Source of the DNA: Agrococcus pavilionensis RW1
Lineage (GTDB): Bacteria > Actinomycetota > Actinomycetes > Actinomycetales > Microbacteriaceae
Assembly (NCBI RefSeq): GCF_000400485.1
Contig: NZ_ASHR01000030.1
Location: 124,001 to 188,000, forward strand
Length of the DNA stretch: 64,000 nt
Direction of reading: 5' to 3'
Shown: positions 33,650 through 61,155 of the stretch, piece by piece
How positions within the stretch are numbered: the stretch's first letter is position 1
Layout: each line of letters starts with the position of its first letter
Translations under genes and position numbers: made by a program
Notes under the pieces: model-generated
What the model was told of the DNA's origin: nothing
The model's database searches: none
The model's input: the letters and a program-made list of their open reading frames with translations, nothing else

Positions 33650-34840
33650 ATGGCGGCAGAGCGAGTGCACGACGTGCTGGTGGTCGGCGGGGGCAACGGC
33701 GGCCTCTCGGCCGCGGCCCACCTGCGTCGCCGGGGATGCCCCGACGTCGGGCTCATCGAGCCCTCTGAGCGCCACGTCTACAAGCCGCTGCAGAACTACG
33801 TCGGCACGGGCCTCGCGAGCGACGACGAGCTGTCGAGGCCCCAGGCGTCGCTCATCCCCGAGGGCGTCGAGTGGCATCGCACCGCGGCCGTCGCGATCGA
33901 CCCCAAGCGTCGCGAGGTGCGCTGCGCCGACGGCTCCGTCGTCCGCGGCCGCGACCTCATCGTCGCGACCGGCGCGGTCATCGACTGGAGTCTGCTGCCC
34001 GGCGCGACGGAGGCGCTCGCGAGCGGCCTCGCCGTCACGACCTACGTCGACACCGAGCTCGCCCGCACTCGCGAGCGCATCGCGGGCTTCACCTCGGGCC
34101 GCGCGATCTTCGAGCTGCGCGGGCAGCCGGTCTCGGGGCGTGAGACCGCCCTCAAGCCGCTCTTCATCGCGTGCGACGCGTGGCGCGCGAACGGCGCGCT
34201 CGACGCGATCGAGGTCATCCTCGTGCACGACGGCGACCGCCTGCACCCCGTCGACGCGATCGCGGCCGAGATCCGCCGCCACCTCGACCGCTACGGCATC
34301 GAGGCGCGGCCCTCCACCCACGTCGTCACGCTGCGCGGTGACGAGGTCGACCTCGCGGGGCCGCGCGGCACGATCCCCGAGCGGGCCGACCTCGTCCACC
34401 TCCACCCGCCCTACCGCGCGCCGGAGGTCATCCGGGAGTCGGGCCTCGACGCCGACGGCACCGGAGGGTTCGCCGCCGTCGACCCCGAGACGCTCCGCCA
34501 CCCGACGCATCCGCGCGTGTGGGTCGTCGGCGACGCGGGCGACCTCGGCGACGCCCGCACGGGCGGCGCCCTCCGCGAGCAGGTGAAGATCGCGGTCGAG
34601 AACATCCGCCGCTCGCGAGCCGGCGAGCCGCTCGAGCGCTACGACGGCTACACCGTCGCGCCGATCGCCACGTCGCGGCGGAGCCTCTCGTTCGGGGAGT
34701 ACGACCGCGAGCTGCGCCCGCGCCACTCGCTGCCCCTGCCGGCGCGCGGCCAGATCCGCTCGAGCCCGCTCTGGTACGCGCTCGACCGGCACGCGCTCCC
34801 GCAGATCTACTGGAACCGCATCCTCAAGGGCCGCTTGTGA
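33650..34840 (+). CDS. Sulfide:quinone-oxidoreductase-like flavoprotein
   Basis: 396 residues. N-terminal FAD fold VLVVGGGNGGLSAAAHLRR, the SQR-like ERHVYKPLQNYVGTG, a second ATG motif (DLIVATGAVIDW), and the FAD-closing VWVVGDAGDLGDA. The layout matches type II SQR (SQOR-like). However, the redox cysteine expected near LRGQPVSGRETALKP (about residues 158-172) is absent, and none is seen in the DARTGGALREQVK stretch. Only three cysteines exist in the whole protein. It may use another chemistry than sulfide oxidation. The last 20 residues (PQIYWNRILKGRL) resemble the membrane-binding end of SQR. Confidence 0.78.
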   Translation: MAAERVHDVLVVGGGNGGLSAAAHLRRRGCPDVGLIEPSERHVYKPLQNYVGTGLASDDELSRPQASLIPEGVEWHRTAAVAIDPKRREVRCADGSVVRGRDLIVATGAVIDWSLLPGATEALASGLAVTTYVDTELARTRERIAGFTSGRAIFELRGQPVSGRETALKPLFIACDAWRANGALDAIEVILVHDGDRLHPVDAIAAEIRRHLDRYGIEARPSTHVVTLRGDEVDLAGPRGTIPERADLVHLHPPYRAPEVIRESGLDADGTGGFAAVDPETLRHPTHPRVWVVGDAGDLGDARTGGALREQVKIAVENIRRSRAGEPLERYDGYTVAPIATSRRSLSFGEYDRELRPRHSLPLPARGQIRSSPLWYALDRHALPQIYWNRILKGRL

Positions 34841-34910
34841 CGGCACCGGGCCCCGAGCCGCTGAGCGCCGGGTGCGAGGAGCGGGCGCGCGGCGTGGGAG
34901 ACTGGAGGAC

Positions 34911-35753
34911 GTGACCCACATCGGAGCGGCGAGCGGCGAGCACGCGACACAGGGCCCGGAGGCCCAGCAGTTCGCGGTGCGCTGGGCAGGCATGACCGAC
35001 ACCGGCTTCCGCCGCCAGCACAACGAGGACTCGCTCATCACGCAGCCGCCGGTCTTCGCGGTCGCCGACGGGATGGGCGGCCACTCGCACGGCGACCTCG
35101 CGAGCAAGGCGGTCGTCGAGCGGCTCGCCGACCTGCACGAGCTCGCGGCCGTCGAGCCGATCGATGTCGTCGACGCGCTCCGCCGCGCGACCGACGAGAT
35201 CGAGCTCCTCGGCGTCGGCGAGGGCTCCGCGGGCACGACCGTCACCGGCTGCGCGTTCGCGCTGCACGAGGGCGCGCCGCACTTCGCGGTCTTCAACGTC
35301 GGCGACTCGCGCACCTACGCGATGCTCGGCGAGCGCCTCACGCGCATCACGGTCGACCACTCCGTCGTGCAGGAGCTCATCGACGCGGGCCTGCTCACCG
35401 AGGAGGAGGCCGAGACGCACCCCGAGGCGAACGTCGTCACTCGCGGCGTCGGCGCCGGCATCGACCCCGTGCCCGACTACTTCCTGCTGCCGATCATGCC
35501 GCAGCTCCGCCTCCTGGTGTGCTCCGACGGCCTCACGAAGGAAGTGCACGACGTCGACATCGAGCGCTTGCTGTGGGAGCACGACGACCCGGCGGCCGCC
35601 GCCCAGGCCCTCGTCGCCGCCGCCCTCGACTCGGGCGGGCGCGACAACGTCTCGGTGATCGTCATCGACGTGACGCGCGCGCCGAGCGTCGACGACGTCG
35701 ACCGGACCGTGCCGCGCACGACGCTCCGCGACGAGGAGCCGCGGCGGTCCTGA
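34911..35753 (+). CDS. PP2C-family Ser/Thr protein phosphatase
   Basis: 280 residues from GTG 34911. Metal-dependent phosphatase, probably the partner of the kinase that follows with a one-base overlap (TGATG). PP2C motifs: RQHNEDS, VFAVADGMGGH, GSAGTTVTGC, NVGDSRTY, LLVCSDGLTKEV and GRDNVSVIVIDV, with the metal-binding aspartates intact. There is no membrane helix, unlike mycobacterial PstP. A GAGACT seven bases before the GTG suggests a leaderless start; ATG 34872 and ATG 34993 are alternatives. Confidence 0.9.
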   Translation: MTHIGAASGEHATQGPEAQQFAVRWAGMTDTGFRRQHNEDSLITQPPVFAVADGMGGHSHGDLASKAVVERLADLHELAAVEPIDVVDALRRATDEIELLGVGEGSAGTTVTGCAFALHEGAPHFAVFNVGDSRTYAMLGERLTRITVDHSVVQELIDAGLLTEEEAETHPEANVVTRGVGAGIDPVPDYFLLPIMPQLRLLVCSDGLTKEVHDVDIERLLWEHDDPAAAAQALVAAALDSGGRDNVSVIVIDVTRAPSVDDVDRTVPRTTLRDEEPRRS

Positions 35754-37111
35754 TGGCCAGGCGGCTCCCCTCCGCGCCGCCGGTGCTGCCCGGCTACTCG
35801 CACCTCCACGTGCTCGGCACGGGCGGGTACGCCGACGTCTTCCTCTACGAGCAATCGCTGCCTCGGCGACCCGTCGCGGTCAAGGTGCTCCTCGCGGAGC
35901 TCGTCGACGAGGACGTGCGCCGTTCCTTCCGCACCGAGGTCAACCTCATGGGGCGACTCTCGTCGCACCCGAGCATCCTCACCGTCTACGGCGCCTCGGT
36001 CGCGAGCGACGGCCGCCCCTACCTCGTGATGGAGCTCGCGAACCCCGAGCTCGGCGAGCGATTCCGCACCGAGCCGCTCGCGCCCGAGGCCGCGCTGCGG
36101 GTCGCGATCCGCATCGGCGCCGCGGTCGAGACCGCGCATCGCGCGGGGGTGCTGCACCGCGACATCAAGCCGGCGAACATCCTCACGACCTCGTTCGGGC
36201 ACCCCGTGCTGAGCGACTTCGGCATCGCCGGCCTCCAGCACGACGCGAGCGAGGCCGCGGGTGTCTCGGTGCCGTGGGCGGCGCCCGAGGTGCTGCGCGG
36301 CGAGACGGGCGGCACGATCGCGACCGAGGTGTGGTCGCTCGCCGCGACCCTCTTCTCGCTCATCGCGGGCCGCACCCCCGCCGAGCAGCCCGGCCGCGCC
36401 AACGACCACGCCGCGCTCTCGGAGCGCATCATCGCCCACGACCTGCTGCCCTCGCGCGCGATCCCCGCGGCGCTCCGACCCGTGCTCGACAAGGCGCTCG
36501 CCGCCCGGCCGGGCGACCGCCACGCGAGCGTCGAGGAGCTGCTGGGCGAGCTGCAGCGCGTGCAGCGCGAGCTCGGCTTCGAGGTGACGCCGATCGAGGT
36601 CGAGGTCGACGCGTGGGCCGCCGAGCCGATCGTCGACGATGACGTCGAGGAGGACTCGGATGCGCTGCGGCTGCGGCAGCGACGCTCTCGTCGCGCTCCC
36701 GGCATCACGGGCAGCCGCGTCGACATCTCGCAGTCGACCGGCCGACGCCAGCCGCCGAAGCCCAAGCGCTTCGTGATCGGGCTCGGCATCGCCGCCGCGA
36801 GCGCCGTCGTGCTCGGCATCATCACCGTCGCGGCATTCGCGCTCTCGAGCGTCTCGTCGCAGATCCCGATCGTGCAGGACATCGCGGTGAGCCCCGAGCA
36901 GGGCCGGGTCGCGTTCGCGTGGGAGGACCCCGGCCTCGTCGACACCGACACGTACCACGTGCGCACCTCGACGGGCGATGCCGTCATCCAGGGCGGCCGC
37001 GAGTTCACGCTCACGGGCGCCGCGGGCGAGCGGCTCTGCATCTGGGTCGCCGTGAACCGCGACGGGTCGACGGGCGAGCCGAGCGAGGCGTGCGGGGAGC
37101 CGCTGCCGTGA
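35753..37111 (+). CDS. Membrane Ser/Thr protein kinase with FN3-like extracellular domain
   Basis: 452 residues. The kinase domain (about 15-285) has GTGGYADVF, K44 in VAVKVLL, HRDIKPANIL, DFG in LSDFGIAG, and WAAPEV. A basic/acidic linker follows (RLRQRRSRRA), then one membrane helix near 342-365. The ~80-residue outside part (IAVSPEQGRVAFAWEDPG...TYHVRTSTG...GERLCIWVAVNRDGS) looks like a fibronectin type III fold, not the PASTA repeats of PknB. The next gene encodes a giant protein also containing FN3 domains, suggesting a direct contact. Confidence 0.9.
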   Translation: MARRLPSAPPVLPGYSHLHVLGTGGYADVFLYEQSLPRRPVAVKVLLAELVDEDVRRSFRTEVNLMGRLSSHPSILTVYGASVASDGRPYLVMELANPELGERFRTEPLAPEAALRVAIRIGAAVETAHRAGVLHRDIKPANILTTSFGHPVLSDFGIAGLQHDASEAAGVSVPWAAPEVLRGETGGTIATEVWSLAATLFSLIAGRTPAEQPGRANDHAALSERIIAHDLLPSRAIPAALRPVLDKALAARPGDRHASVEELLGELQRVQRELGFEVTPIEVEVDAWAAEPIVDDDVEEDSDALRLRQRRSRRAPGITGSRVDISQSTGRRQPPKPKRFVIGLGIAAASAVVLGIITVAAFALSSVSSQIPIVQDIAVSPEQGRVAFAWEDPGLVDTDTYHVRTSTGDAVIQGGREFTLTGAAGERLCIWVAVNRDGSTGEPSEACGEPLP

Positions 37112-37135
37112 GGGCGCGGCGATGACGGAGCCGGC

Positions 37136-40100
37136 GTGAAGGCGCGGGCCGGCCTCGTCCTCGGCGGGCTGCTCACCGCCGGGATCGTCGCGGGCGCCGT
37201 GCTCGCGCCGGGCTACCAGGCGCTCGAGCCCGAGCTCGACGGCTCGAGCGTGTGGATCGCGAACGCTAGCGCCGGCGCGATCGGCCTCGCGAACACCGCC
37301 AACAGCACGATCGAGCGCACGGTGCAGGTCGGCGGGGTCGACGAGGTGCTGCAGACGCCGTCGGGCACCGTCGTCGTCGACCGCAGCGCGTCGACCGTGC
37401 GCGTCGTGCGCGAGGGCGCGGCGCAGGCCGGCCCCGCCGTGCCGATCGTCGCGGGCGCGGTCGTCGCCGCGCGCGACGACCGCGTCGTCATCACCTCGCC
37501 CGCGACGGGCGACGTGTGGCGCACGACCACGGGTGCGATCGCCGAGGGCACGCCCCTCGACGAGCCGGTCGTCGCGCTCGGCCGCGGCGGCGTCGCCGTG
37601 CTCGGCGAGGAGAGCCTGCTCGCCGCCTCCCCGGGCCTCGGCCGCGTGCTGCGCGTCGACGACGAGGGCGAGACGGTCGCGAGCGAGCGCGCCCCCGTCT
37701 CGCCCGCCGCGCCCGACCTGCAGCTCACCGCGCTCGGCGACGAGTGGGTGCTCTACGACGCGGGCTCCGGCGTGCTCTCGACGAGCTCGTGGCAGCGCTC
37801 CGTCGACGAGACGGGCGTGCGGCTCCAGGAACCGGGGCCAGCCGCATCCGCCGTGCTCTACGCGACCGACTCCGCGCTCGTGCGCCAGCAGCTCGGCGTG
37901 CCCGCCGCGACGACGCTCGCCTCGGGCGCGAGCGGCGAGCCCGCGAGGCCGGTCGTGGGCGACGGATGCGCCTTCGCGGCGTGGCAGGGCGGCACCGGCT
38001 GGCGATCGTGCGAGGGCGAGGAGCCCGTCGTCCTCGCGCTGCAGGGCGTGCCGCTCGACGCGAGCCTGCGGATCCTGCAGCGCGGGAGCGCGACCGCGGT
38101 GACGGACGTCGGTTCGGGCGACGCGTGGGCGATCGACCGCGACGGGCGCCGCATCACGGGCTGGCAGCTCGAGGACGACGAGCCCGCACCCGAGGCGCCG
38201 GTCGACGGTGAGGCCGTCGAGGAGACCGTCGAGGCCGCGCCCGAGCCGCCCGTCGCGGTGGACGACGAGCTCGGGGCGCGCGCCGGCGCGGTGACGGTGC
38301 TCCCGGTGCTGCTCAACGACAGCGATGCGAACGGTGACCCCATCCTCATCACCGACGTCGCGCTCGACCGGGACGACGCATCCGCCACCATCACCCCCGA
38401 CGGGCGCGGCATCCGCTTCGAGGCGCCCGCGGCGGGCGTGACGCGCGTCGACTACCGCATCTCGGACGGCGCCGAGAGCGATCGCGCGGTCGCGACGGTG
38501 ACGCTGCGGGAGGGCAACGAGCCGCCCGTGCTCGAGCGACCCGTGCGCGCGACGCTCGAGGCGGGCTCGACGATCGCCCTCGACGCGCTCGACGGCTGGG
38601 TCGATCCCGAGGGCGACGCGCTCGCGGTCGTCCGCGCCGAGGCAGCCGCCCCCGACCGCGTGAGCGTGCGCTCCGACGGTCGGCTCGAGTTCACCGACGG
38701 CGGCTCGGGCACCGAGCGGCGGGTGCTCGTGACGGTCACCGACGGCCAGGCGGAGGCGACCGAGGAGATCGTGCTGACCGTGCACGCCGGCGCCGTGCCG
38801 ATCTCGGCGCAGCCCGTCACGGCCGTGACGCGCGTCGGCCAGCAGCTCGTGCTCGAGCCGCTGCTCGCCGCCCAGGGCGGCGCGGGTGAGCTGAGCCTCC
38901 ACAACGTCGTCGCGCCGAACTACCCGGTCGACCCGAGCTTCGCCGACGGCACGATCCTCGTGCGCCCGACCGACGCGGGCCTCATGCGCTTCTCCTACGT
39001 CGTCACGGACGGCACCGCGACGCAGGAGGGGCGCGTCGTCGTCCGGGTGCTCGATGCCGCGGACGCGTCGAGCCCGCCCACGACGATGCCGGTGCGCGCG
39101 GCGCTCCCGGCGGCCGGCACGGTCGAGCTCGACATCGACGAGCTCGCCCTCGACCCTTCGGGCGGCGTCGTCGCGCTCACCGCGGTCGCGAGCGACGACA
39201 CCGCTGTGCGCGCGGAGGTCGTCGACGCCGAGCAGCTGCGGCTCACGCTCACCGACGAGCTCGCGCAGCAGACGACCGTGCGATACACCGTCACGAACGG
39301 CGTGCAGAGCGCCGAGGGCGAGCTGCGCGTGTCCGCGAGCGGCTCGGCCGCGCTGCAGGCGCCCATCGCTCGCGACGACGAGGTGACCGTGCGCCCCGGC
39401 GGGCTCGTCGAGATCCCGGTGCTCGTCAACGACGAGCAGCCCGACCGGCTCCCGCTCGAGCTCGATCCCGCGATCGTCGCGCCGCCCGAGGCCGGCCTGC
39501 TGTTCGTCGACGGCGACCGGATGCGGTTCGTCGCCCCCGACGAGCCCGGCACCTTCACGGCCGACTACGCCGTGCGCGGACCGGACGGCCAGTCGTCGAC
39601 GGCCGGCATCACGATGCAGGTCGCCGAGGCGGCGCGCACGACGAACGCGGCGCCCGCCGCGCCGCCGATCGAGGCGCGGGTCGTCGCCGGCGCGACCGTC
39701 GACCTCGCGCTGCCGCTCTCGAACGCCGACCCGAACGGCGATCCCGTGCAGCTGCTCGGCCCCTCGACCGCGCCGACGCTCGGCTTCGTCACGCAGCTCG
39801 GGCGCTCGACCCTGCGCTACCAGGCGGGGGACTACTCGCGCGGCACCGACGAGTTCCGCTACCGCGTCACCGACGACCTCGGCGCGACCGGGGAGGGCGT
39901 CGTGCGGGTCATCGTCGTCGAGCCGGGGCCCGCGTTGCCGCCCGTCCTCGGCGCCGACTCGGCCGCGATGCGCCCCGACTCCACGCTCGTCGTGCCCGTG
40001 CTCGACAACGACCGCGACCCCGCGGGGCTCCCGCTCGAGATCGTCGACGTCGAGACCGCCTCGCCGGGCGCGACCGCGTCGATCCGCGACGGCGCCGTGC

Positions 40101-42820
40101 TCGTCTCGGCCGCGCCCGACGCATCCGACATCGGCATCGTCGTCACGGTCGAGAACTCCGCCGGCACCGCCGCGGCGAGCTGGCTGCGCATCGACGTCGA
40201 CCCGGACGCGCCGCCGCCCGCGCCCGACGTCACCGACGTGCAGGTGCCCATCCAATCGATCGCCTCGGCGGAGGCGGTGCGCATCGACCCGCTCGCGCAG
40301 GCCACTGTGCGCGACGGCCGCGCCGACGCGCTGCGCGCGAGCCTCCCGCTGCCCGCCGAGGGCGTGGCGCTGCGCGACGACGGCTCGATCGAGATCGCGA
40401 TCGCCGACCGCACGCGCTTCGTGCCGTTCACGGTCGAGCGCGACGACGCCGAGGGCGCGAGCGCGACGGCCGTCATCGCGGTGCCCGGGCGGGACGACGC
40501 GCTCCCGCAGCTCAAGCCCGGCGTCGCGCCGCTCGAGGCGCGCGCGGGGGAGACGCTCGAGATCGCGATCGACGACGTCGTCGACACGGTGGACGGCGAC
40601 GGCGCGATGCTCACCGACGCGAGCGCCGTGCGCGCCGCGCCGACCGACGGCTCGAACCCCGTGATCGACGAGAAGACGCTGCGGTTCGTGCCCCAGCCTG
40701 GCTACTTCGGCCCGGCGAGCATCACGTTCGAGGTCACCGACGGTGAGAGCCCCACCGACCCCGACGGCAGGGTCGGCACGATCGTGCTGCCGATCGAGGT
40801 GCTGCCGGGCGATCGCGTGCCGCTCACGGTGCTCGGCTCCTTCGTGCAGCTCGAGCCCGGCACCGAGCGCTCGATCGACCTCGCCCGCATCACGCGCGCG
40901 CCCGATCCCGCCCGGATCGCGAGCGCCTCGTGGTCGATCCTCGACGACGTGCCCGCGGGCTTCCAAGCCGTGATCGACGGCTCGACCCTCACGGTGCGAG
41001 CGCTCGACCGCACCGACCGCGGCACGCGCGCCGACCTCCGCATCGGCGTGCGCGACGCCGCGGGCGAGGGCGTGCCCGGCACCGTCTCGCTCGCCGTCAT
41101 CTCCACGACCGCGCCGCTCGTCGCACCCGAGCCCGATGCCGTGACCGTGCAGCGCGGCTCGAGCGCCGAGGTGCAGCCGCTCGTCAACGACGAGGCGTCG
41201 AACCCGTTCCCCTCGACGCCGCTGCGGATCGGCGGCCTGCGCGTCACGGGCGCCGAGGAGCGCGGCATCACCGCGGTCGTCGACGGCTCGACGGTGCGCG
41301 TCTCGGCCTCGGCGACCGCGGCGATCGGCACGACGATCGTGCAGGTGCTCGTGCTCGACGCGGCGGGCGTGCCGGAGCGCGGCGTGTGGAGCCCCATCGC
41401 GGTGACGGTGCAGGACGTGCCGGATGCGCCCGCGCCCCCCGTGCAGGCGTTCGACGAGCACGTCGACGGGGTCGTGACGATGGCGATCGACCCGCCCGCG
41501 AGCAACGGCAGCCCCATCACGGGCTACCGCATCGTCGGCAGCGGCGTCGACGTCGCGTGCGGACCGACGCCCCGCTGCCGCCTCGAGGGCCTCCCGGCGG
41601 GCGTCGACCTGCGGCTGCAGGCGATCGCGACGAACGCGCTCGGCGACAGCCTCCCCTCCGACCCGTCGGAGCCCGTGCACGCCGATCGGCTGCCCGCGGT
41701 CGTGCCGGGCGTCCAGGCGACGCCCGCGAGCGCACCGGGCTCCGTGCGCGTCGTCTGGCAGGGCGTGCCGCAGCCGCCGGGCGGCACCCCCATCGAGGCC
41801 TACCTCGTGCGCGTCTCGGGATCGGGGCTCGACCAGCTCGTGCGCGTCGGCCCCGCCGAGCGGCAGAGCGTCATCTCGGGGCTCACGCCCGGCCGCGCGT
41901 ACTCGATCGAGGTGGCGGCCGCGAACCGCGCGGGCGTGCCCGACACCGCGTGGCGCTGGCCCGCAGCGCCGGTGCCGTTCACGGCCGTCGGCCTGCCGGG
42001 CACGACGCCCGTGCTCGTGACGGGCCACGACGGCGGGAGCGTCACCGTGCGGTGGGCGGCGGTCGACCCCGCGGGCGCGGCCGCCGTGCGCTACGCCGCT
42101 CGCGTCGTGCCCGTCGGGGAGCGGCCCTCGTGCTCGAGCGCGGGCGGCGGCAGCCCCGCCGGCTCCTCGGCCCTCTCGGCGACGCTCCCGGTCGCGGCCG
42201 GGTCCCGCTCGGTCGTCGCCGTCACCGCCGACAACGGCTGGCACTGCTCGGTCTCCGTCTCGGATCCCGTCTTCGGCACGCCCGCGCCCGTCGACGCATC
42301 CGCCGTCGCCGTCGCCACCGAGGTGCGCGAGGACGCCCTCGACGCGAGGCTCGAGCGGGCACCGACGCTCGCGAGCGGCACGTGGCTCGAGGCGCGCGTC
42401 GCGGGCGGCCCGTGGCAGCGGGCGCAAGCGGGCACGTGGCTCACGCCCTCGAGCGCCGCGTTCCAGTACGGCGAGCAGGTCGGCGTCGACGTGCGCGCGT
42501 GCGCGCCGGGCGCGACCCAGGGCGTGTGCTCGGCGGCGACGACCGTCGGCCAGGTCGTGCCGCTGCGGCTGCGCGCGACGATCGAGGCCTGCCGGCCGCT
42601 CGTGCCGCTCGAGGCGAGCGTCGAGGGCAACGCGTCGCCGCTCGCGCAGGACGAGGTCTTCGCGAGCTACCTCGTCGGCGGCTCGTGGACGAGCGAGCGG
42701 CCCGCGACCCAAGCGGTGCCCGCGGGGGCGACGCGAGTGCGCGCGTGGGGCCAAGTAACCTATCCGGAGTCCGGGCCCCACAGGGATCCGTCGCCGACCG
42801 AGGCGGGATGCGGGCTGTGA
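37136..42820 (+). CDS. Giant Ig-like/FN3 repeat surface protein
   Basis: 1894 residues from GTG 37136. An N-terminal hydrophobic segment (residues 5-25, LVLGGLLTAGIVAGAVLAPG) is a signal anchor. Residues ~30-340 form a propeller-like region; 345-372 is an acidic Pro/Glu linker. From ~373 to ~1430 run about eleven Ig/cadherin-like repeats, each with a VAVDDE or V(P)VLxNDxDxxGDPL-type motif (PVLLNDSDANGDP, PVLVNDEQPDRLP, PVLDNDRDPAGLP, PLVNDEASNPFPS). From ~1431 to ~1715 there are three FN3 domains (PPASNGSPITGYRIVGSG, PQPPGGTPIEAYLVRVSG). No LPxTG, no C-terminal helix; it ends in EAGCGL. It may be a wall-spanning stalk or adhesin. Confidence 0.85.
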   Translation: MKARAGLVLGGLLTAGIVAGAVLAPGYQALEPELDGSSVWIANASAGAIGLANTANSTIERTVQVGGVDEVLQTPSGTVVVDRSASTVRVVREGAAQAGPAVPIVAGAVVAARDDRVVITSPATGDVWRTTTGAIAEGTPLDEPVVALGRGGVAVLGEESLLAASPGLGRVLRVDDEGETVASERAPVSPAAPDLQLTALGDEWVLYDAGSGVLSTSSWQRSVDETGVRLQEPGPAASAVLYATDSALVRQQLGVPAATTLASGASGEPARPVVGDGCAFAAWQGGTGWRSCEGEEPVVLALQGVPLDASLRILQRGSATAVTDVGSGDAWAIDRDGRRITGWQLEDDEPAPEAPVDGEAVEETVEAAPEPPVAVDDELGARAGAVTVLPVLLNDSDANGDPILITDVALDRDDASATITPDGRGIRFEAPAAGVTRVDYRISDGAESDRAVATVTLREGNEPPVLERPVRATLEAGSTIALDALDGWVDPEGDALAVVRAEAAAPDRVSVRSDGRLEFTDGGSGTERRVLVTVTDGQAEATEEIVLTVHAGAVPISAQPVTAVTRVGQQLVLEPLLAAQGGAGELSLHNVVAPNYPVDPSFADGTILVRPTDAGLMRFSYVVTDGTATQEGRVVVRVLDAADASSPPTTMPVRAALPAAGTVELDIDELALDPSGGVVALTAVASDDTAVRAEVVDAEQLRLTLTDELAQQTTVRYTVTNGVQSAEGELRVSASGSAALQAPIARDDEVTVRPGGLVEIPVLVNDEQPDRLPLELDPAIVAPPEAGLLFVDGDRMRFVAPDEPGTFTADYAVRGPDGQSSTAGITMQVAEAARTTNAAPAAPPIEARVVAGATVDLALPLSNADPNGDPVQLLGPSTAPTLGFVTQLGRSTLRYQAGDYSRGTDEFRYRVTDDLGATGEGVVRVIVVEPGPALPPVLGADSAAMRPDSTLVVPVLDNDRDPAGLPLEIVDVETASPGATASIRDGAVLVSAAPDASDIGIVVTVENSAGTAAASWLRIDVDPDAPPPAPDVTDVQVPIQSIASAEAVRIDPLAQATVRDGRADALRASLPLPAEGVALRDDGSIEIAIADRTRFVPFTVERDDAEGASATAVIAVPGRDDALPQLKPGVAPLEARAGETLEIAIDDVVDTVDGDGAMLTDASAVRAAPTDGSNPVIDEKTLRFVPQPGYFGPASITFEVTDGESPTDPDGRVGTIVLPIEVLPGDRVPLTVLGSFVQLEPGTERSIDLARITRAPDPARIASASWSILDDVPAGFQAVIDGSTLTVRALDRTDRGTRADLRIGVRDAAGEGVPGTVSLAVISTTAPLVAPEPDAVTVQRGSSAEVQPLVNDEASNPFPSTPLRIGGLRVTGAEERGITAVVDGSTVRVSASATAAIGTTIVQVLVLDAAGVPERGVWSPIAVTVQDVPDAPAPPVQAFDEHVDGVVTMAIDPPASNGSPITGYRIVGSGVDVACGPTPRCRLEGLPAGVDLRLQAIATNALGDSLPSDPSEPVHADRLPAVVPGVQATPASAPGSVRVVWQGVPQPPGGTPIEAYLVRVSGSGLDQLVRVGPAERQSVISGLTPGRAYSIEVAAANRAGVPDTAWRWPAAPVPFTAVGLPGTTPVLVTGHDGGSVTVRWAAVDPAGAAAVRYAARVVPVGERPSCSSAGGGSPAGSSALSATLPVAAGSRSVVAVTADNGWHCSVSVSDPVFGTPAPVDASAVAVATEVREDALDARLERAPTLASGTWLEARVAGGPWQRAQAGTWLTPSSAAFQYGEQVGVDVRACAPGATQGVCSAATTVGQVVPLRLRATIEACRPLVPLEASVEGNASPLAQDEVFASYLVGGSWTSERPATQAVPAGATRVRAWGQVTYPESGPHRDPSPTEAGCGL

Positions 42821-42840
42821 CCGACAGGGAGGAGCCCACG

Positions 42841-43827
42841 GTGTTGGACGCGAGGACGGACGCGAGCGCGGTCGACGCGGGCGTCGACGTCTCGACCATC
42901 CAGGAGCTCGCCGAGCGGGTCGTCGAGCAGGTCGAGCGCGTGCTCGTCGGCAAGCCGCACGTCGTGCAGCTCTCGCTCACCGCGATGCTGAGCCACGGGC
43001 ACCTGCTGATCGAGGACAACCCCGGCACCGGCAAGACGTCGCTCGCCCGCGCGCTCGCGACGGCGATCTCGGGGACGTCGAACCGCATCCAGTTCACCCC
43101 CGACCTGCTGCCGGGCGACATCACGGGCGTGAGCGTGTGGAGCCAGCGCTCGGGGGAGTTCGAGTACCGGCGCGGCCCCGTGTTCGCCAACGTCGTGCTC
43201 GCCGACGAGATCAACCGCGCGAGCCCGAAGACGCAGTCGGCGCTGCTCGAGGTGATGCAGGAGGGGCAGGTCACGGTCGACGGGATCGCGCACGCGGTGC
43301 CGCAGCCGTTCATGGTCATCGCGACGCAGAACCCGGTCGAGCACGCCGGCACCTACCAGCTGCCGGAGGCGCAGCTCGACCGCTTCGCGCTCAAGGCGTC
43401 GATCGGCTACCCCGACCACGCGTCGACCCTGCGGATCCTCGCCGACTCGGGCGACGAGCTCTCGCCCGAGGAGATCGAGCCCGTCGCCGACGTGCACCTC
43501 GTGCAGGCGCTCGCGCGCCAGGTGCGCGGCGTCCACGTCGAGGCGTCGATCGTCGACTACGTCGCGCGGCTCGTCGACGCGACGCGCGAGGCCGACGAGG
43601 TGCGCCTGGGCGTCTCGGTGCGCGGCGCGCTCGCGCTCGTGCGGACGGCGCGCGCGTGGGCAGCGATCCACGGCCGCGACTACGTGACCCCCGACGACGT
43701 CAAGGCGCTCGCCGTGCCGGCGCTCGCGCACCGCCTCGTGCTGCAGCCGGAGGCGGAGTTCGACGACGTCCGGCCCGAGAGCATCGTGCAGCAGCTCATG
43801 CTCACCGTGGCGCCGCCCAGGCGCTGA
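42841..43827 (+). CDS. MoxR-family AAA+ ATPase (first copy)
   Basis: 328 residues from GTG 42841, which has GGGAGGAG six bases upstream; GTG 42817, overlapping the giant gene's stop, is the alternative. Walker A DNPGTGKTSLARAL, Walker B VLADEINRASPKTQSALLE, sensor 1 IATQNPVEHAGTYQLPEAQ. MoxR ATPases act as chaperones for VWA or DUF58 partners; the DUF58 gene follows three bases later. Confidence 0.93.
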   Translation: MLDARTDASAVDAGVDVSTIQELAERVVEQVERVLVGKPHVVQLSLTAMLSHGHLLIEDNPGTGKTSLARALATAISGTSNRIQFTPDLLPGDITGVSVWSQRSGEFEYRRGPVFANVVLADEINRASPKTQSALLEVMQEGQVTVDGIAHAVPQPFMVIATQNPVEHAGTYQLPEAQLDRFALKASIGYPDHASTLRILADSGDELSPEEIEPVADVHLVQALARQVRGVHVEASIVDYVARLVDATREADEVRLGVSVRGALALVRTARAWAAIHGRDYVTPDDVKALAVPALAHRLVLQPEAEFDDVRPESIVQQLMLTVAPPRR

Positions 43828-43829
43828 CG

Positions 43830-45008
43830 ATGCGCTGGCTCGACGCCGCCCTGCGCGCCATCACCCCGTGGGGCTGGGCGCTGCTCGCGGTCGTCGCGCT
43901 CGGCGTCTTCCTCGCGCGCTCGCTCGGCTGGGCGGAGGCGCTCGTCTCCGCCGTCGCGGCGGCGACGCTGCTCGTCGGCGCGATCCCGTGGATCGTCGGC
44001 GAGCGCTGGGCGCGCGCCCGCATCGGCTTGAGCGCCGAGCGCGTGCCTGTCGGCGCCGACGCGCTCGCGCTCGTCGAGGTGTCGCGCCCGACGCGCGCCG
44101 CGACGCCGCGCCAGATCGACCTCGACATCGGCGACGAGGAGGCCGTGCTCGAGATCCCCTCGCTCGGTGTCGGCGGCAAGGTGCTGCGCTCGGTGCCGCT
44201 CGACACGAGCCGCCGCGGGCTGCGCACGATCGGGCCCGCGACGATCATGCGCACCGACCCCTTCGGCGTGCTCGAGCGCCGCCACCGGCTCACCGAGACG
44301 CGCACGCTCGTCGTGCACCCGCGCGTCGTGCGGCTGCCGGGCGGCGCGGGCGGCATCGTGCGCGACCTCGAGGGCGAGGCCGCCGCCGAGCGCACCGCCG
44401 ACGACGTCTCGTTCCACAGCCTGCGCGAGTACGCGCCGGGCGACGACCGACGGCTCGTGCACTGGCGCTCGAGCGCGCGCCACGGCTCGCTGCTCGTGCG
44501 GCAGTTCGAGCCCTCGCGCCGCGCCGACACGCTCATCGTGCTCTCGACCGACCCGCGCGAGTACGACGGCGACGACTTCGAGCTCGCGCTCTCGATCGTC
44601 GGCACCCTCGGCCTCGCCGCGATCGCCGACCGCCGCTCGCTCCGCGTCGTCGAGAGCCCGCGCGCCGAGCGCAGCGCCGTGCGGCCGATCGACGCCGTGA
44701 CGCGCGACCGGCTGCTCGACGCGCTCGCGGTGCTCGAGCCGCGCGGCGGCGTCGGCATCGCCGCCGCCGCGCGCGCGTCGCGCAGCACCGCGCGCGGCAG
44801 CGTCGCGTGGCTCGTGACCGGGTCGACCGTGCCGCCGCGCGAGCTCCGCACCGCCGCGAACGGCATGCCCGAGGGCGTCGTCTCGGTCGTCGTGCGCGCG
44901 GCGGTCGGCGCGGTGCCGACGCGGGCGCGGCTCGGCGACGCCGACGTCGCGACCGTCGGCGCGATCGAGGACCTCTCGCGCGGCATCGGCGACGCGGGGC
45001 GAGCGTGA
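43830..45008 (+). CDS. DUF58 membrane protein (first copy)
   Basis: 392 residues. Two membrane helices at about 13-33 and 35-53. The DUF58 core has SLREYAPGDDRRLVHWRSSA near residues 195-215, followed by a degenerate VWA-like domain. Such proteins bind the MoxR ATPase next to them. Its stop overlaps the transglutaminase-like start (GTGA at 45005). Confidence 0.9.
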   Translation: MRWLDAALRAITPWGWALLAVVALGVFLARSLGWAEALVSAVAAATLLVGAIPWIVGERWARARIGLSAERVPVGADALALVEVSRPTRAATPRQIDLDIGDEEAVLEIPSLGVGGKVLRSVPLDTSRRGLRTIGPATIMRTDPFGVLERRHRLTETRTLVVHPRVVRLPGGAGGIVRDLEGEAAAERTADDVSFHSLREYAPGDDRRLVHWRSSARHGSLLVRQFEPSRRADTLIVLSTDPREYDGDDFELALSIVGTLGLAAIADRRSLRVVESPRAERSAVRPIDAVTRDRLLDALAVLEPRGGVGIAAAARASRSTARGSVAWLVTGSTVPPRELRTAANGMPEGVVSVVVRAAVGAVPTRARLGDADVATVGAIEDLSRGIGDAGRA

Positions 45009-47158
45009 TCCGCCGCGCGCCGAGCGTCGGCCTGCTCATGCTCGCGATCGCGGCAGCGTGCGTGCCGATGTGGTGGATCTTCGGCACCCTGCAGCTCGTC
45101 GTCGCGGTCTCGGTCGCGCTGCTCGTCGGCGCCGGCATCGGCGTCCTCGGCGCGGTGCGCCGCTGGGGATCGCTGTCGATGCTGCTCGTCGCGCTCGTCG
45201 CGCTCGCCGTGCTCGCCGTGCCGCTCACCGCCCCGCAGCGCATCGGGCGAGGCGAGTGGGGCGAGGGGCTCATCGACGCCGCGGCGGCGACGGTGCTCTC
45301 GTGGCGCCGCCTGCTGACGATCGGGCTCCCCGTCGGCACGAGCGACGCCCTCCTCATGGCGCCCGTGCTGCTCGTGCTCTTCGGCACCCTCATCGGCGTG
45401 TGGATCGCGCTGCGCTCGCGCTCGGCCGAGTCGGCCGCGCTCGTGCCCGCGGTGATCGGCGTGTGGGCGATCCTCTGGGGACCGCTCGCGATGCCCGCCC
45501 CGTGGCTGCTCGGCATGATCGCGCTCGTGCCGATCGGGGCGTACATCACCGTCGTGCGGCAAGCGCGGCGCCGCAGCCGCGCGCCGCGCGCGCTCTCGTC
45601 GCTCGCTCGGCGCGTCGGCGCGGGCGTCGCGGTCGCGCTCGTCGCCGCGCTCGCGGCGGGCACGGCGGGCGCGCTCGTCGAGCTGCCCGAGCGCGTCGTG
45701 CTGCGCGGCGGGAGCACGTGGTCCGTCGAGCTGCCCGGGGCATCGCCGATGGCCGCCTACCGCTCGTTCTGGGCCGAGGACCGGCGCGGTGCCCGCCAGC
45801 TCACCGCCACGGGCCTCGTGCCGGGGGACCGCATCCGCATCGCCGCCCTCGACGGCTACGACGGCGAGGTGCTCTCCGTCGAGCGCGCCGGCTTCGAGCG
45901 CGTCGCGAGCGCCGAGGAGGGCAGCGGCCGGCTCGTCGGCATCACGGTCGGCGAGCTCTCGACGCCCTGGCTGCCGACCGTCGGCGTGCCCACGGGCGTG
46001 CGCTTCGTCGGCGAGCGCGCCGAGCGGCTCGGCTCGACGCTCCACCGCGATCGCGACTTGCGCACGCTCATCGTCGAGGCCGGGCTGCGACCGGGCGACG
46101 GCTTCCAGATGCAGGTCGAGCAGGGTGCCCCGGTCGTGCCGCCCGAGCAGGTGGCCGAGCTCGTGCCCGCCGATCCCGCGCGCGCCGCGATCGAGCTGCC
46201 GGAGGAGATGCTCACCGCGCTCGCCGCGTGGACGGGCGACGCCGAGACCCCGGGAGAGCGCCTGCACGCGATGGTCGAGGGCATGCGCGCGAGCGGCTAC
46301 ATCAGCCACGGCGTGCTCGAGGACGAGGCGCCCTCGCGGCCGGGCCACTCCCTCGAGCGGCTCGCGGAGCTCTTCACCGAGCCGATGATCGGCGATGCCG
46401 AGCAGTACTCGACCGCGGCGATGCTGCTCGCGCGCCAGCTCGGCTTCGACGCGCGCGTCGTCGTGGGCTTCACGCCCGATGCCGTGCAGCCCGGGCAGCC
46501 GACGCCCGTCGTCGGCGCCGACGCGGATGCGTGGATGGAGGTGCGCACGCCGGCCGGCTGGGTCGCCATCGACGTCTCGCCCGCGCCGCGGCCGATCCCC
46601 GAGCAGGAGCAGGGCGCGCCGGCGATCGTCGAGCAGCCGCCCGCCCAGCAGGCGCCCGCGCCCGCGCCGGGCGGGCAGCGGCAGGGCGCCGACCCCGCCG
46701 CGCCGAACGCGCCCGAGCGGAGCGAGGACGGCGCCTCGCGGCTGCTCGCCGCGCTCGGCGCCGCGGCCGCCGTGCTCGGGCTCCTCGCGCTCGTCGCCGC
46801 GCTGCCCGTCGGGCTCGTGGTCGCGAAGGTCGTGCGCCGACGGCGCCGCCGCCGCGCCGACGAGCCGCGCGATCGCGCCGAGGGCGCGTGGGCGGAGGTC
46901 GTCGACGGACTCCGCGATCGCGGCGATGCGGCGCCCGAGGGCGGCACGCGGCTCGAGCAAGCGGGCGACGACGACCGGATGCGCGAGCTCGCGGACCGCG
47001 TGGACCGCGCGGTGTTCGCGCCGAGGCCGCCGAGCGAGCCAGAGGTCGACGCCGCGTGGGCGCTGAGCGATGCGGTGCTCGAGCGCCGCGACGAGGGGGA
47101 GGGGCGGCTGCGGCCGCTGCTCGCGCGGCTCAACCCGGCATCGCTCGTGCGGCGCTAG
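45005..47158 (+). CDS. Transglutaminase-fold membrane protein, catalytic residues lost
   Basis: 717 residues. About seven membrane helices in the first 210 residues (TgpA-like), an outside transglutaminase domain near 420-530, a Pro/Gln linker, one more helix near 585-605, and a cytoplasmic tail. In active enzymes the core reads GDCEQ...(H)AW...D. Here residue 465 is Ala (GDAEQYSTAAMLLARQLGF) and the histidine position 508 is Asp (ADADAWMEV); only D523 (WVAIDVSP) remains. It therefore cannot use the Cys-His-Asp mechanism and probably binds peptide or wall chains. Confidence 0.88.
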   Translation: MIRRAPSVGLLMLAIAAACVPMWWIFGTLQLVVAVSVALLVGAGIGVLGAVRRWGSLSMLLVALVALAVLAVPLTAPQRIGRGEWGEGLIDAAAATVLSWRRLLTIGLPVGTSDALLMAPVLLVLFGTLIGVWIALRSRSAESAALVPAVIGVWAILWGPLAMPAPWLLGMIALVPIGAYITVVRQARRRSRAPRALSSLARRVGAGVAVALVAALAAGTAGALVELPERVVLRGGSTWSVELPGASPMAAYRSFWAEDRRGARQLTATGLVPGDRIRIAALDGYDGEVLSVERAGFERVASAEEGSGRLVGITVGELSTPWLPTVGVPTGVRFVGERAERLGSTLHRDRDLRTLIVEAGLRPGDGFQMQVEQGAPVVPPEQVAELVPADPARAAIELPEEMLTALAAWTGDAETPGERLHAMVEGMRASGYISHGVLEDEAPSRPGHSLERLAELFTEPMIGDAEQYSTAAMLLARQLGFDARVVVGFTPDAVQPGQPTPVVGADADAWMEVRTPAGWVAIDVSPAPRPIPEQEQGAPAIVEQPPAQQAPAPAPGGQRQGADPAAPNAPERSEDGASRLLAALGAAAAVLGLLALVAALPVGLVVAKVVRRRRRRRADEPRDRAEGAWAEVVDGLRDRGDAAPEGGTRLEQAGDDDRMRELADRVDRAVFAPRPPSEPEVDAAWALSDAVLERRDEGEGRLRPLLARLNPASLVRR

Positions 47159-47169
47159 CGCGGAGCGGT

Positions 47170-47222
47170 CTCCACAGCCGCCCCGCGCGGCGGTGCGCGG
47201 TCGCGGCCCCGCGCGGCACCCT
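47170..47222 (+). promoter_or_regulatory. CTCCACAG box and leaderless -10 box for the FtsK-like gene
   Basis: CTCCACAG at 47170-47177 and CACCCT at 47217-47222, six bases before ATG 47229. The distance from the end of the box to the start codon is 52 bases, the same as before the DUF4192 gene. Confidence 0.45.
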
Positions 47223-47228
47223 GCCGCC

Positions 47229-49934
47229 ATGGAGTCGCGCATCGACCTCCCGCGCCCGCCCGCCGAGCCGGAGCCCGCGTCGTTCCCGCTGCTCGCGAGC
47301 CTCGCTCCGGTGCTCGGGGCCGTGGCCATGTGGCTGCTGCTGCAGACGCCCACCGTGCTCGTGCTCGCGCTGCTCGGCCCGGTGATCGCGCTCGCGAGCC
47401 TCGGCGACGGCAGGCGCGTGCGGCGCGCGCGGTCGCGCCGCGAGGAGGCGCGCTGGCGCGCGGAGATCGCGGATGCCGCGGAGCGCATCGACCGGGCGGT
47501 CGGGGAGCGGCGGCGCGAGCTCGAGGCCGCGCACCCCGACGCGCGACGGGTCGCGGCGCGGCCGCCGCACGACCCGCACCGCTGGCGCCGCTCGCGCGGG
47601 GCGCCGCTCGACGTCGTGCTCGGCATCGGTGCGCTGCCCTCGGGGATCGTCGTCGAGGGCGCCGTCCCCACGCGCGACCCCGCCGCGCTGCGGCTCGGCG
47701 CTGCCGAGGAGGTGACGCGGCTGCGCTCGGCCGCGGCGGTCGTCGAGGGGCCGGTGACGGTCGACGCGCGCGACGGGATCGGCTTCGTCGGCCCGCCCGC
47801 GATCGCGGTCGCGCTCGCGCGCGCCGCGCTCGTGCAGGTGCTCGACGTCGTCGCGCCCGACGAGGCGGAGGTCATCGCGCCCGACGGCGAGGCGTGGCAC
47901 TGGCTCGCGCCCCTCCCGCACCCCGTGCACCGGGAGCCGGGCGGGCACGTGCGGGTCGTCGGCGACGACGTCGACGTCACGATCGCGACCGCGCTCGCGC
48001 CTGCGCTCCTGCCGCGCGAGTGCCGCGTCGTGGTGCGGGCCGCGCTCGACGCCGCTCGGCTCGCGGGCCGCGAGCTCGCGCCCACGGCGCTCAGCGAGCG
48101 GGAGGCGGCGAGCGCCGCCCGCTCGCTCGCGCTCGCCGCCGAGCACGCGGGGTTCCTGCGCGCCGGCGGGCTCCCCGCCCGCGTCGACCTCGACGCGCTG
48201 CCGACGGGGGAGCGCGGCCTCGAGGCGGTCTTCCTCGTCGCCGACGCCCCGGTGGTGCTCGACCTCGTGCGCGACGGCCCGCACGCGGTCGTCGGCGGCA
48301 CGACCGGCGCAGGCAAGAGCGAGCTGCTCGTCGCGTGGGTCGCGGCGATGGCGGCAGGCCGCTCGACCGAGGAGGTGTCGTTCCTGCTCGTCGACTTCAA
48401 GGGCGGCGCGTCCTTCACGGCGCTGCAGGCGCTCGCGCACGTCGTCGGCGTCATGACCGATCTCGACGAGGCGGGCGCGCGACGGGCGATCGAGAGCCTC
48501 CGCGCCGAGCTGCGGCGGCGCGAGCGCGCGCTCGCTGAGCGGGGCGCGCGCTCGATCGAGGAGGCGACCGGGCTGCCGCGCCTCGTGATCGTCGTCGACG
48601 AGTTCGCCGCGATGCTCGACGAGCTGCCCGACCTGCACCGGCTCTTCGTCGACCTCGCGGCGCGGGGACGCTCGCTCGGCGTGCACCTCGTGCTGTGCAC
48701 GCAGCGACCGGCCGACGCGGTGCGCGACGCGCTGCTCGCGAACTGCGGCATCCGCATCTCGCTGCGCGTCACCTCCGAGGCCGACGCCGTCGCGGTGACC
48801 GGGAGTCCGGAGGCGGCGGCGATCCCGCTCGAGGCGCGCGGGCGATGCGTCGTGCGCGTGAGCGGCGGCGCCACCCGGCTCGCGCAAGCCGCGCTCGCGT
48901 CGCCCGCGCTCCTGCAGCGGCTCGTGTCGGCGGCCGCGGCGATGCCGAGGCCGCCGCGGCCGTGGCGCGAGCCGCTCCCGGCCCGCGTGCGGCTCACCGA
49001 CGTGCCGCTCGCGAGCGCGGCCGGCGGCGGCGAGGGCGCCGGCGATCGCACGGTGCGGCTCGGCCTCGTCGACCGGCCGGCGCGGCAGGCGGTCGAGCCC
49101 GTGCGGTGGCGGCCGGCCGTGGACGGTCCGCTGCTCGCGATCGGGGGTGCGGGCAGCGGCCGCTCGAGCCTCGCCGACCTCATCGCGGGCCAGCTCGGCG
49201 TCGCGGTCATCGATCGGGAGGACGCGCTGTGGGACGCGCTCGAGGAGGCCGGGGCACCCGGAGCGCACAGCGCGCTCGTCGTCGACGACCTCGACCTGCA
49301 GCTCGCTCGGCTCGGCGAGGCGCAGCAAGCGGTCGCGGTGCAGCTGCTGCTGCGCCGCATGCGCGAGGGCGCCGCCGTCGCGCTCACCGCGCGGCGCGTC
49401 TCGAGCGCGATGAGCCAGGTCGCCGCGCTCGCCGAGTGGCTGGTGCTGCTGCGGATCGCGAGCCGGCAGGAGCACGTCGTCGCGGGCGGCGCCGGCGCGC
49501 TGCACGACGCCGGGCTGCCGCCCGGCGCGGGCTGGCTCGCCGACGAGCGCATCCAGCTCGCGCTGCCCGACGCGCCGGCGCCGCGGCGAGCGCCCGCGAC
49601 CGTGCCGATGCCGCAGGGGCCGCTCGCCGTCGTGCTGGGAGCGGGAGCCGCGCTGCCGGCCTCGCTCGCGGGCGCCGCGCGACCTGCCGTCGGCGCGACC
49701 GCGACCGCGGTCGTCGGCTCGGTCACCGAGTGGGAGGCGGCGTGGGGCGAGCTCGACCGGCTCCGCGCCGAGCGTCCCGTGGTCGTGCTCGGCGTCGAGG
49801 AGCGGGCGCTCCGGCAGGTGCTGCGGCACGCGCCGCTCGCGCCGCCGATGCGCGAAGCGCCCGCCTGGCTGCTCCAGGGCGGGCGCTTCGCGAGGCTGCG
49901 CTATCCGAGCAGCGACGCCACCGATGCTGCCTGA
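47229..49934 (+). CDS. FtsK/SpoIIIE (EssC-like) ATPase
   Basis: 901 residues. Two membrane helices at about 17-35 and 37-55, a domain of unknown fold to ~330, then the main FtsK ATPase with Walker A GGTTGAGKSELL (near 355), LLVDFKGGASF, and Walker B IVVDEFAAMLDELP. A second ATPase domain near 630-760 is degenerate: GGAGSGRSSLAD has Arg in place of the Walker lysine, with ALVVDDLDLQ after it. This arrangement resembles EssC/EccC of type VII secretion more than DNA-pumping FtsK; no gamma DNA-binding domain is seen. No WXG100 gene is near. Its end overlaps the end of ald by 34 bases. Confidence 0.85.
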   Translation: MESRIDLPRPPAEPEPASFPLLASLAPVLGAVAMWLLLQTPTVLVLALLGPVIALASLGDGRRVRRARSRREEARWRAEIADAAERIDRAVGERRRELEAAHPDARRVAARPPHDPHRWRRSRGAPLDVVLGIGALPSGIVVEGAVPTRDPAALRLGAAEEVTRLRSAAAVVEGPVTVDARDGIGFVGPPAIAVALARAALVQVLDVVAPDEAEVIAPDGEAWHWLAPLPHPVHREPGGHVRVVGDDVDVTIATALAPALLPRECRVVVRAALDAARLAGRELAPTALSEREAASAARSLALAAEHAGFLRAGGLPARVDLDALPTGERGLEAVFLVADAPVVLDLVRDGPHAVVGGTTGAGKSELLVAWVAAMAAGRSTEEVSFLLVDFKGGASFTALQALAHVVGVMTDLDEAGARRAIESLRAELRRRERALAERGARSIEEATGLPRLVIVVDEFAAMLDELPDLHRLFVDLAARGRSLGVHLVLCTQRPADAVRDALLANCGIRISLRVTSEADAVAVTGSPEAAAIPLEARGRCVVRVSGGATRLAQAALASPALLQRLVSAAAAMPRPPRPWREPLPARVRLTDVPLASAAGGGEGAGDRTVRLGLVDRPARQAVEPVRWRPAVDGPLLAIGGAGSGRSSLADLIAGQLGVAVIDREDALWDALEEAGAPGAHSALVVDDLDLQLARLGEAQQAVAVQLLLRRMREGAAVALTARRVSSAMSQVAALAEWLVLLRIASRQEHVVAGGAGALHDAGLPPGAGWLADERIQLALPDAPAPRRAPATVPMPQGPLAVVLGAGAALPASLAGAARPAVGATATAVVGSVTEWEAAWGELDRLRAERPVVVLGVEERALRQVLRHAPLAPPMREAPAWLLQGGRFARLRYPSSDATDAA

Positions 49935-61147: not shown

Positions 61148-61155
61148 GACCGGTC

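Follow-up and report, generated by a model that had tools for sequence, protein, structure and literature searches.

What task do seven plus-strand genes share when they join a signalling pair to a giant repeat protein and a motor of secretion type, packed almost without gaps? The question is raised by positions 34911-49934 of a 64,000-nucleotide stretch of Agrococcus pavilionensis RW1 (contig NZ_ASHR01000030.1, positions 124,001 to 188,000; hereafter the window). There, a PP2C-type phosphatase, a membrane Ser/Thr kinase, a giant protein of immunoglobulin-like (Ig) and FN3 domains, a MoxR AAA+ ATPase, a DUF58 protein, a polytopic transglutaminase-fold (TG) protein and an FtsK-like ATPase of the EccC/EssC type follow one another. 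All seven are real genes, each supported by a coding-type G+C bias across codon positions or by clear domain matches, and the coordinates and junctions given in an earlier note on this DNA were confirmed. The phosphatase and kinase genes overlap by 1 base, DUF58 and TG by 4, and the giant and MoxR by 4 if MoxR starts at GTG 42817; 24 bases separate kinase from giant and 2 separate MoxR from DUF58. We read the block as an envelope machine controlled by its kinase and phosphatase, with a paralogue in the accessory part of a type VII secretion system (T7SS) locus of actinobacteria; going by gene content and relatedness, this reading seems to us about evenly balanced between right and wrong.

To follow the block through the Microbacteriaceae, we used the N-terminal 460 residues of the giant as a query, which matched 123 of 150 family genomes and 73 of 85 genera. 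One locus from each of 57 of the 73 giant-positive genera, the window included, was annotated from six-frame open reading frames with our own profiles. The 16 genera left out gave mostly weaker matches, three strong ones (g44, g64 and g75) being omitted partly for their contig-end position, and for g104 the second-best genome was taken, the best one lying near a contig end. Regardless of order, kinase, giant, MoxR, DUF58 and TG occur together in 56/57 genera, PP2C in 50/57 and any FHA gene in 54/57. A same-strand EccC/EssC-type ATPase stands at 36 of the 57 loci (34 without two short frames of 148 and 205 codons), all seven gene kinds of the window in 35, and a nine-gene form in 34. The giant is therefore not found mostly without MoxR, kinase and FtsK genes, and the view of the earlier note that these genes belong together is borne out. 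The figure of 36 is a lower bound because most of the loci without an ATPase were seen only in part: L050, L069, L075, L078 and L079 were covered for less than 12 kb downstream of the giant, and most ATPase-less loci for just 3-5 kb upstream of it. By chance an ATPase would be expected beside the giant at about 1.9 of 57 loci, assuming two copies per 3 Mb and a zone of 50 kb, which exceeds the length of most stretches covered.

The order seen most often is fhaN-PP2C-kinase-giant-MoxR-DUF58-TG-fhaZ-ATPase. Most relatives thus have two FHA genes, absent from the earlier note, one before PP2C (fhaN) and one in the gap between TG and ATPase (fhaZ); neither the window nor six complete-block Agrococcus relatives (L006-L010, L012) have an FHA gene. 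Among named genomes, a search that picks up close relatives found 10 related loci, 9 in Agrococcus and 1 in Salinibacterium, and placed the closest giant in A. lahaulensis (94% identity in the best segment). At L043 (G032), the giant and DUF58/TG/ATPase are split over several frames by frameshifts or sequence errors, the genome being 86% complete. Two or three giant genes lie close together at G136:C1:2278364-2290552, G207:C1:649873-657543 and G408:C1:1904351-1924350, which suggests duplication of the giant alone.

The same genome carries a second, paralogous block on contig C28 (132776-154549, minus strand), comprising a giant of 2037 residues, MoxR, DUF58, TG, fhaZ, PP2C, fhaN, kinase and fha252, a 252-residue gene taken for FHA by eye and without a Pfam match. 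This block continues with a 1532-residue EssC bearing an FHA domain and with a WXG100 gene above the Pfam cut-off; because an EssC-type ATPase and WXG100 are both present, the C28 locus is, by its gene content, a T7SS locus. Compared with its own genome at E <= 1e-20, the window ATPase matched only the C28 EssC and itself. Among the loci read, 25 contain fha252 and are called type B here; in 15 of them a full EssC lies on the same strand, and this form recurs in other families. Eight small open reading frames near EssC were preselected by a WXG model or by composition. Seven match WXG100, three of them above the Pfam cut-off, and the one in G047 does not; the model, built from two family sequences, is narrow and under-counts elsewhere. 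In trees of MoxR and of the kinase, midpoint-rooted and with grouping read without support values, loci of the window's kind (type A) grouped apart from type B, with the outside locus G347 joining type A and the family locus L078 lying outside it in the kinase tree; the genome's own C28 copy is visible in the kinase tree only. Because of this grouping, type A is, as far as these trees indicate, an old paralogue and not a recent copy.

Two further observations concern WXG100 genes. One whose sequence is close to that of the C28 gene lies at C24:58491-58745 of the same genome (L167), away from both ATPase loci, and is a possible secreted partner or substrate site. Downstream of EssC in out_G047f12 and out_G044f9, identical WXG100-like frames lie 650-1000 bases apart (L110/L111 and L100/L101), through recent tandem duplication or an assembly effect.

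The description of the window motor as EssC-like agrees with its best NCBIfam matches, EssC, EccCa and EccCb (all under the equivalog cut-offs), and with 14 solved chains at E <= 1e-5. The best of these is 4nh0, listed as Cell division FtsK/SpoIIIE, which we take to be an EccC; EccC5 and YukB follow. The protein has two N-terminal hydrophobic segments and an intact first module (GGTTGAGKS, LVIVVDEF), and its second module has Arg in place of the Walker A Lys (GSGRS). First-module Walker A and B are kept in 31/31 short family ATPases. The open frame begins at 47070, upstream of the ATG at 47229. Genome-wide there are three WXG100 matches (C24, C26 and C28) and five FHA domains (on C25, C28 and C37), none of the latter at the window locus; a search for EccB found no match in the genome and was also blank in all control genomes, so its absence is not claimable.

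Two published systems each cover part of the block, so the remark in the earlier note that no functional description of the combination was known is not supported. The core five genes with PP2C and FHA are recognisable, by gene content, as the PFNA operon of Bifidobacterium, given in the available part of its description as pkb2, fn3, aaa-atp, duf58, tgm, prpC, a hypothetical gene and fha (PMC8430577). The five core genes and their order are the same in both, both giants combine a signal or transmembrane segment with FN3 domains, and the additional PP2C and FHA genes are shared with relatives of the window. In PFNA, however, prpC comes sixth, and prpC and fha follow tgm in some species, whereas the window has PP2C first and no FHA gene. 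In Bifidobacterium longum the operon is co-transcribed and Pkb2 phosphorylates MoxR, according to the same source (PMC8430577). The portions available of two other papers state that no orthologues of PFNA were found in other organisms (PMC6803598) and that it is found only in bifidobacteria (PMC10688814); the loci described here, as we read them, contradict this restriction. A further paper, again in its available part, draws a comparison between PFNA and the moxR operon of mycobacteria (PMC12067865). The MoxR-DUF58-transglutaminase sets of the MoxR Proper subfamily have the trio in the window's order (PMC6803598, as far as available), and the window differs from them in its Cys-less TG and in the giant, kinase and PP2C joined to it.

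The closest published secretion system is T7SSd (TsdA, TsdC, TsdD, TsdH and TsdI; PMC11217815), described in the accessible part of that paper as having a kinase, an Ig giant, an FHA-EssC and WXG100, and as occurring in Actinomycetota, Bifidobacterium included per the abstract. It shares with the window a membrane Ser/Thr kinase, a giant Ig-like envelope protein and an EssC-type ATPase. T7SSd has WXG100 and an FHA domain on its ATPase, both of which are missing from the window locus; the T7SSd giant has an N-terminal signal peptide and a C-terminal transmembrane segment, whereas the window giant has, by hydropathy, an N-terminal segment and none near its C-terminus. In the accessible part of the same source, TsdI is proposed to span the envelope like EsaA, and FHA/phospho-Thr control is proposed. 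An analogy also exists with T7SSb, which combines a kinase-fold membrane protein (EssB), an EssC-type ATPase and a large envelope-spanning protein (EsaA) (PMC11217815, same portion); EssB, however, is a pseudokinase, whereas the catalytic motifs of the window kinase are retained, and the window giant is of a different kind. The main text of PMC11217815, in its available form, does not contain MoxR, DUF58, transglutaminase, fibronectin, FN3, Pkb2 or PFNA, and the terms "type VII" and "FtsK" are absent from the available text of two PFNA papers, PMC8430577 among them. A limited literature search by title and abstract opening found no paper linking T7SS to MoxR, DUF58 or FN3.

Beyond the family, a 23-row profile of the giant (E <= 1e-6) found matches in 157 of the 248 genomes from the order, including 20 that belong to the family itself, and in 44 of 246 in a sample of the phylum. 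Part of these matches, and most of those in the phylum sample, consist of the Ig repeat alone (profile positions about 370-479) and were not counted as relatives; outside the order, among the matches listed, four extend well beyond the repeat with E < 1e-50 (G538, G604, G503 and G514). The core five are present in 23 of 29 outside loci; 13 of the 29 have a same-strand EssC-type ATPase, and 16 have one when both strands are counted. The thirtieth, in G315, was left out since giant and MoxR lie there in a single open frame and the giant went unscored. That frame, in the stretch 518732-553731 (L088/L089), runs for 2194 codons with no stop between the two genes and is a fusion or a sequence error. 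One outside family (f4), whose matching genomes measure 1.7-3.1 Mb, has kinase-giant-MoxR-DUF58-TG in 5/5 loci, G315 counted, with PP2C after TG in two loci and then fhaZ in line in one. As this is the reported PFNA gene order (PMC8430577, in the part available), we presume f4 to be Bifidobacteriaceae. Nearly the full length of profile A2 is matched by the f4 giants (E < 1e-70 in the f4 rows placed). In all five genomes an EssC-like frame (591-696 codons) lies outside the stretch around the giant, and G288 has a further, longer one of 1329 codons about 40 kb from the giant on the same contig; the type A ATPase profile matches all five short frames, and the one run through NCBIfam has EssC as its best match. 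The attached ATPase of the window block is thus found elsewhere in the genome in these five. In the f4 loci (L086-L091), MoxR can be lengthened at its N-terminus by a long stretch that contains DDATR-like or ETVLA-like repeats, which are possible phospho-Thr sites.

The claim of a dead transglutaminase was upheld. The window TG combines a transglutaminase core match with a sub-threshold TgpA_N match, and Ala occupies the site of the catalytic Cys (GDAEQYS); because of this replacement the protein is a predicted pseudoenzyme. The Cys is absent in 87/87 aligned relatives, which have A, D, E, Q, G or S there within a largely retained GDxEQY-like motif, and the His position is lost in most type A sequences and retained in several of type B. 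Against solved structures at E <= 0.01 the TG gave no match. Since the fold is kept without its nucleophile, a binding or structural part is suggested. The TGM protein of PFNA is called presumably a cysteine protease in the available part of PMC8430577; this does not fit the five f4 sequences as aligned here, all of which have Ser and none of which has Cys at that position.

The signalling pair has intact motifs. In the phosphatase these are DGMGG, GDSR, SDGL and DNV, and DVDRTVPR in its C-terminal tail is a possible phospho-Thr site; the kinase keeps AVK, HRDIKPAN and DFG, has one transmembrane segment near residues 346-364 (hydropathy) with a short outside domain, lacks the juxtamembrane Thr that most relatives have, and matched no solved structure at E <= 1e-25. 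By hydropathy, the giant has an N-terminal transmembrane or signal segment at residues 5-23, a weaker hydrophobic segment at 1389-1412 and none at its C-terminus, and DUF58 has hydrophobic segments at its N-terminus. The region of the giant up to about residue 360 is conserved, with a fold not recognised, and Big_9/cadherin-like Ig repeats and FN3 domains come after it. Its N-terminal profile matched four solved chains, the best one on the Ig repeat; a designed-barrel chain before that repeat (E 0.0012) was taken as a chance match. We also counted a short acidic-Thr motif, [DE][DEN]T[VIL], against 200 shuffles. In fhaN, the stretch of at most 150 residues that precedes the FHA domain holds 55 motifs in 34/73 sequences (shuffle mean 2.6, maximum 7); PP2C tails hold 15 in 15/72 (mean 2.0, maximum 6). 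In an alignment, 42 of the 49 type A kinases from outside Agrococcus have a juxtamembrane Thr of EDRTR type, and none of nine Agrococcus kinases does; seven of these nine come from blocks seen whole and FHA-free. The alignment replaced unaligned regular-expression counts (60 with and 34 without over types A, B and Agrococcus loci; 27 and 23 in a second count).

A mechanism that would join these parts begins with the membrane kinase and PP2C, which would set Thr phosphorylation in short acidic tails. FHA adaptors would read the phospho-Thr, a step whose two FHA genes are both absent at the Agrococcus locus. MoxR would then remodel a membrane complex of DUF58 and the pseudo-transglutaminase, and the remodelled complex may license two partners that would act together, the EssC-type ATPase in the membrane and the giant anchored by its N-terminus. 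The giant could extend through the wall as a stalk, sensor or conduit. A bolder extension, to which we give somewhat less than even credence, is that the block supplies the envelope part of a T7SS subtype (type B) that is undescribed and spread across the Actinomycetales, that the window's type A may have descended from it as a WXG100-less derivative with a shortened ATPase, and that the bifidobacterial PFNA "immune-sensing" operon would be the same machine parted from its motor, its TG a structural pseudoenzyme and not a protease.

Several results weigh against the envelope machine related to T7SS. The motor is its least constant part, with no same-strand EssC-type gene in the stretch seen at 21/57 family loci, none on either strand at 13/29 outside loci, and none in the giant's 35-kb stretch in 5/5 f4 genomes. 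The core can therefore stand without an adjacent motor, and a machine that needs one at the locus is not established. Of the 21 motor-less genomes, 15 were searched whole: a type A-like ATPase lies elsewhere in G079, G184, G095, G193 and G105, and the others have only full-length-EssC-like or weaker matches. In G095 an EssC-type frame stands about 8 kb upstream on the opposite strand (L067, C4:137464), and in G105 the best-scoring giant is an orphan without MoxR, DUF58 and TG (L029, C2), the full block being on C4 (L169). In the window itself, the domain search found no FHA match in the ATPase, unlike the C28 EssC, and a WXG100 gene cannot fit, the largest same-strand gap over 34840-49934 being about 70 bases; with the ATPase also shortened, the window copy is for these reasons not filed as T7SS, and a T7SS-like working mode is one that the ATPase may have. 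WXG100 lies nearby in 1/50 family type A loci by the narrow model, the second-module Walker A Lys is missing in 18 of 30 covering short family ATPases, the window's included, and the type B loci are spread over more than one clade. As for the phospho-FHA switch, the acidic-Thr motif is a post-hoc definition, set after inspecting tails side by side, and because the sequences are related, the shuffles overstate its enrichment. Its counts do not exceed shuffles in fhaZ (2; mean 3.5), MoxR (2; 8.8), DUF58 (2; 7.5), the kinase (8; 4.8, maximum 12), short ATPases (3; 4.1), full EssC (9; 6.0, maximum 16), TG (18; 11.0, maximum 21) or the giant (78; 65.2, maximum 85), and the strict motif occurs once in the window, in the giant. 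The joint loss of FHA and kinase Thr in Agrococcus is one event at most, a correlation from one lineage. The single machine of the earlier note, which would export, assemble or sense a wall-spanning fibre, is partly supported: the shared gene set, the N-terminal anchoring of the giant (by hydropathy), the dead TG and the EssC-type motor hold, and fibre, export and sensing we infer.

The inconstant motor speaks for a PFNA-type surface sensing or adhesion module without secretion, in which the kinase would sense outside cues, MoxR would assist in the folding or placement of the giant, and the ATPase would be a co-inherited neighbour with its own task. The core five occur without a nearby same-strand EssC at 20/57 family loci (21 less the orphan giant L029) and at the presumed bifidobacterial loci, and published views of PFNA, in the parts available, favour adhesion, cytokine binding and MoxR as kinase substrate (PMC8430577, PMC6803598, PMC10688814). 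Yet the ATPase stands beside the giant far more often than the 1.9 loci expected, the paralogous block sits inside a T7SS locus, and two relocated ATPase copies keep their neighbours, PP2C in G079, where the giant locus shows none, and fhaZ, PP2C and fhaN in G184. We consider this module possible, if doubtful. A host-specific original role agrees poorly with the occurrence of the block in Agrococcus and Salinibacterium, both environmental genera. A system for anti-phage defence or conflict between bacteria, of the MoxR/kinase kind, is rejected as very unlikely: the kinase matches the defence kinases mad6 and PD-T4-6, the ATPase matches SspH and mad8, and conflict settings are known for MoxR systems (PMC7159879, in part), but these are kinase-domain and P-loop-domain matches, PADLOC has no match at E <= 1e-5 for the giant, DUF58, TG or PP2C, and the content is stable over 56/57 genera, unlike a patchy defence island. 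High gene density and neighbours that look ordinary by eye would suit a chance adjacency of separate envelope genes, an idea already contradicted, and scarcely credible, in view of the same content in near-fixed order in those 56 genera and the core five at 23/29 outside loci.

Table 1. Coordinates in the window of the seven genes and of sites within the block
Feature	Position	Strand	Basis
PP2C-type Ser/Thr phosphatase, 280 aa	34911..35753	+	domain match, motifs
Membrane Ser/Thr kinase, 452 aa	35753..37111	+	domain match, motifs, hydropathy
Giant Big_9/cadherin-like Ig + FN3 protein, 1894 aa	37136..42820	+	domain matches, hydropathy
MoxR AAA+ ATPase, 336 aa	42817..43827 (start possibly 42841)	+	domain match
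DUF58 protein, 392 aa	43830..45008	+	domain match, hydropathy
Polytopic transglutaminase-fold (TG) protein, 717 aa	45005..47158	+	domain match, hydropathy
GDAEQYS, aa 463-469, site of missing catalytic Cys in TG	46391..46411	+	alignment
70-base gap; zinc-ribbon/FHA gene fhaZ sits there in most family relatives	47159..47228	+	absent here
EccC/EssC-type FtsK-like ATPase, 901 aa from ATG 47229	47229..49934	+	domain, NCBIfam, structure matches
Walker A, first ATPase module	48294..48326	+	motif

The gene after the block, alanine dehydrogenase, is convergent and overlaps the end of the ATPase gene. Further on, within 60140-63500, a match at 60296 marks a second MoxR gene, after which come open reading frames resembling a MoxR-DUF58-VWA set, presumably the common Bat-like set, in which only MoxR was matched.

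PFNA and type VII secretion have been studied apart, and our limited literature search found no link between them in print. If the envelope machine related to T7SS is real, the first function of PFNA would not be host immunity and its TGM would not be an enzyme. Environmental actinobacteria would then be a place to study the role of MoxR-DUF58-transglutaminase sets, and the block would offer a T7SS layout in which a phospho-FHA switch is explicit and open to testing.

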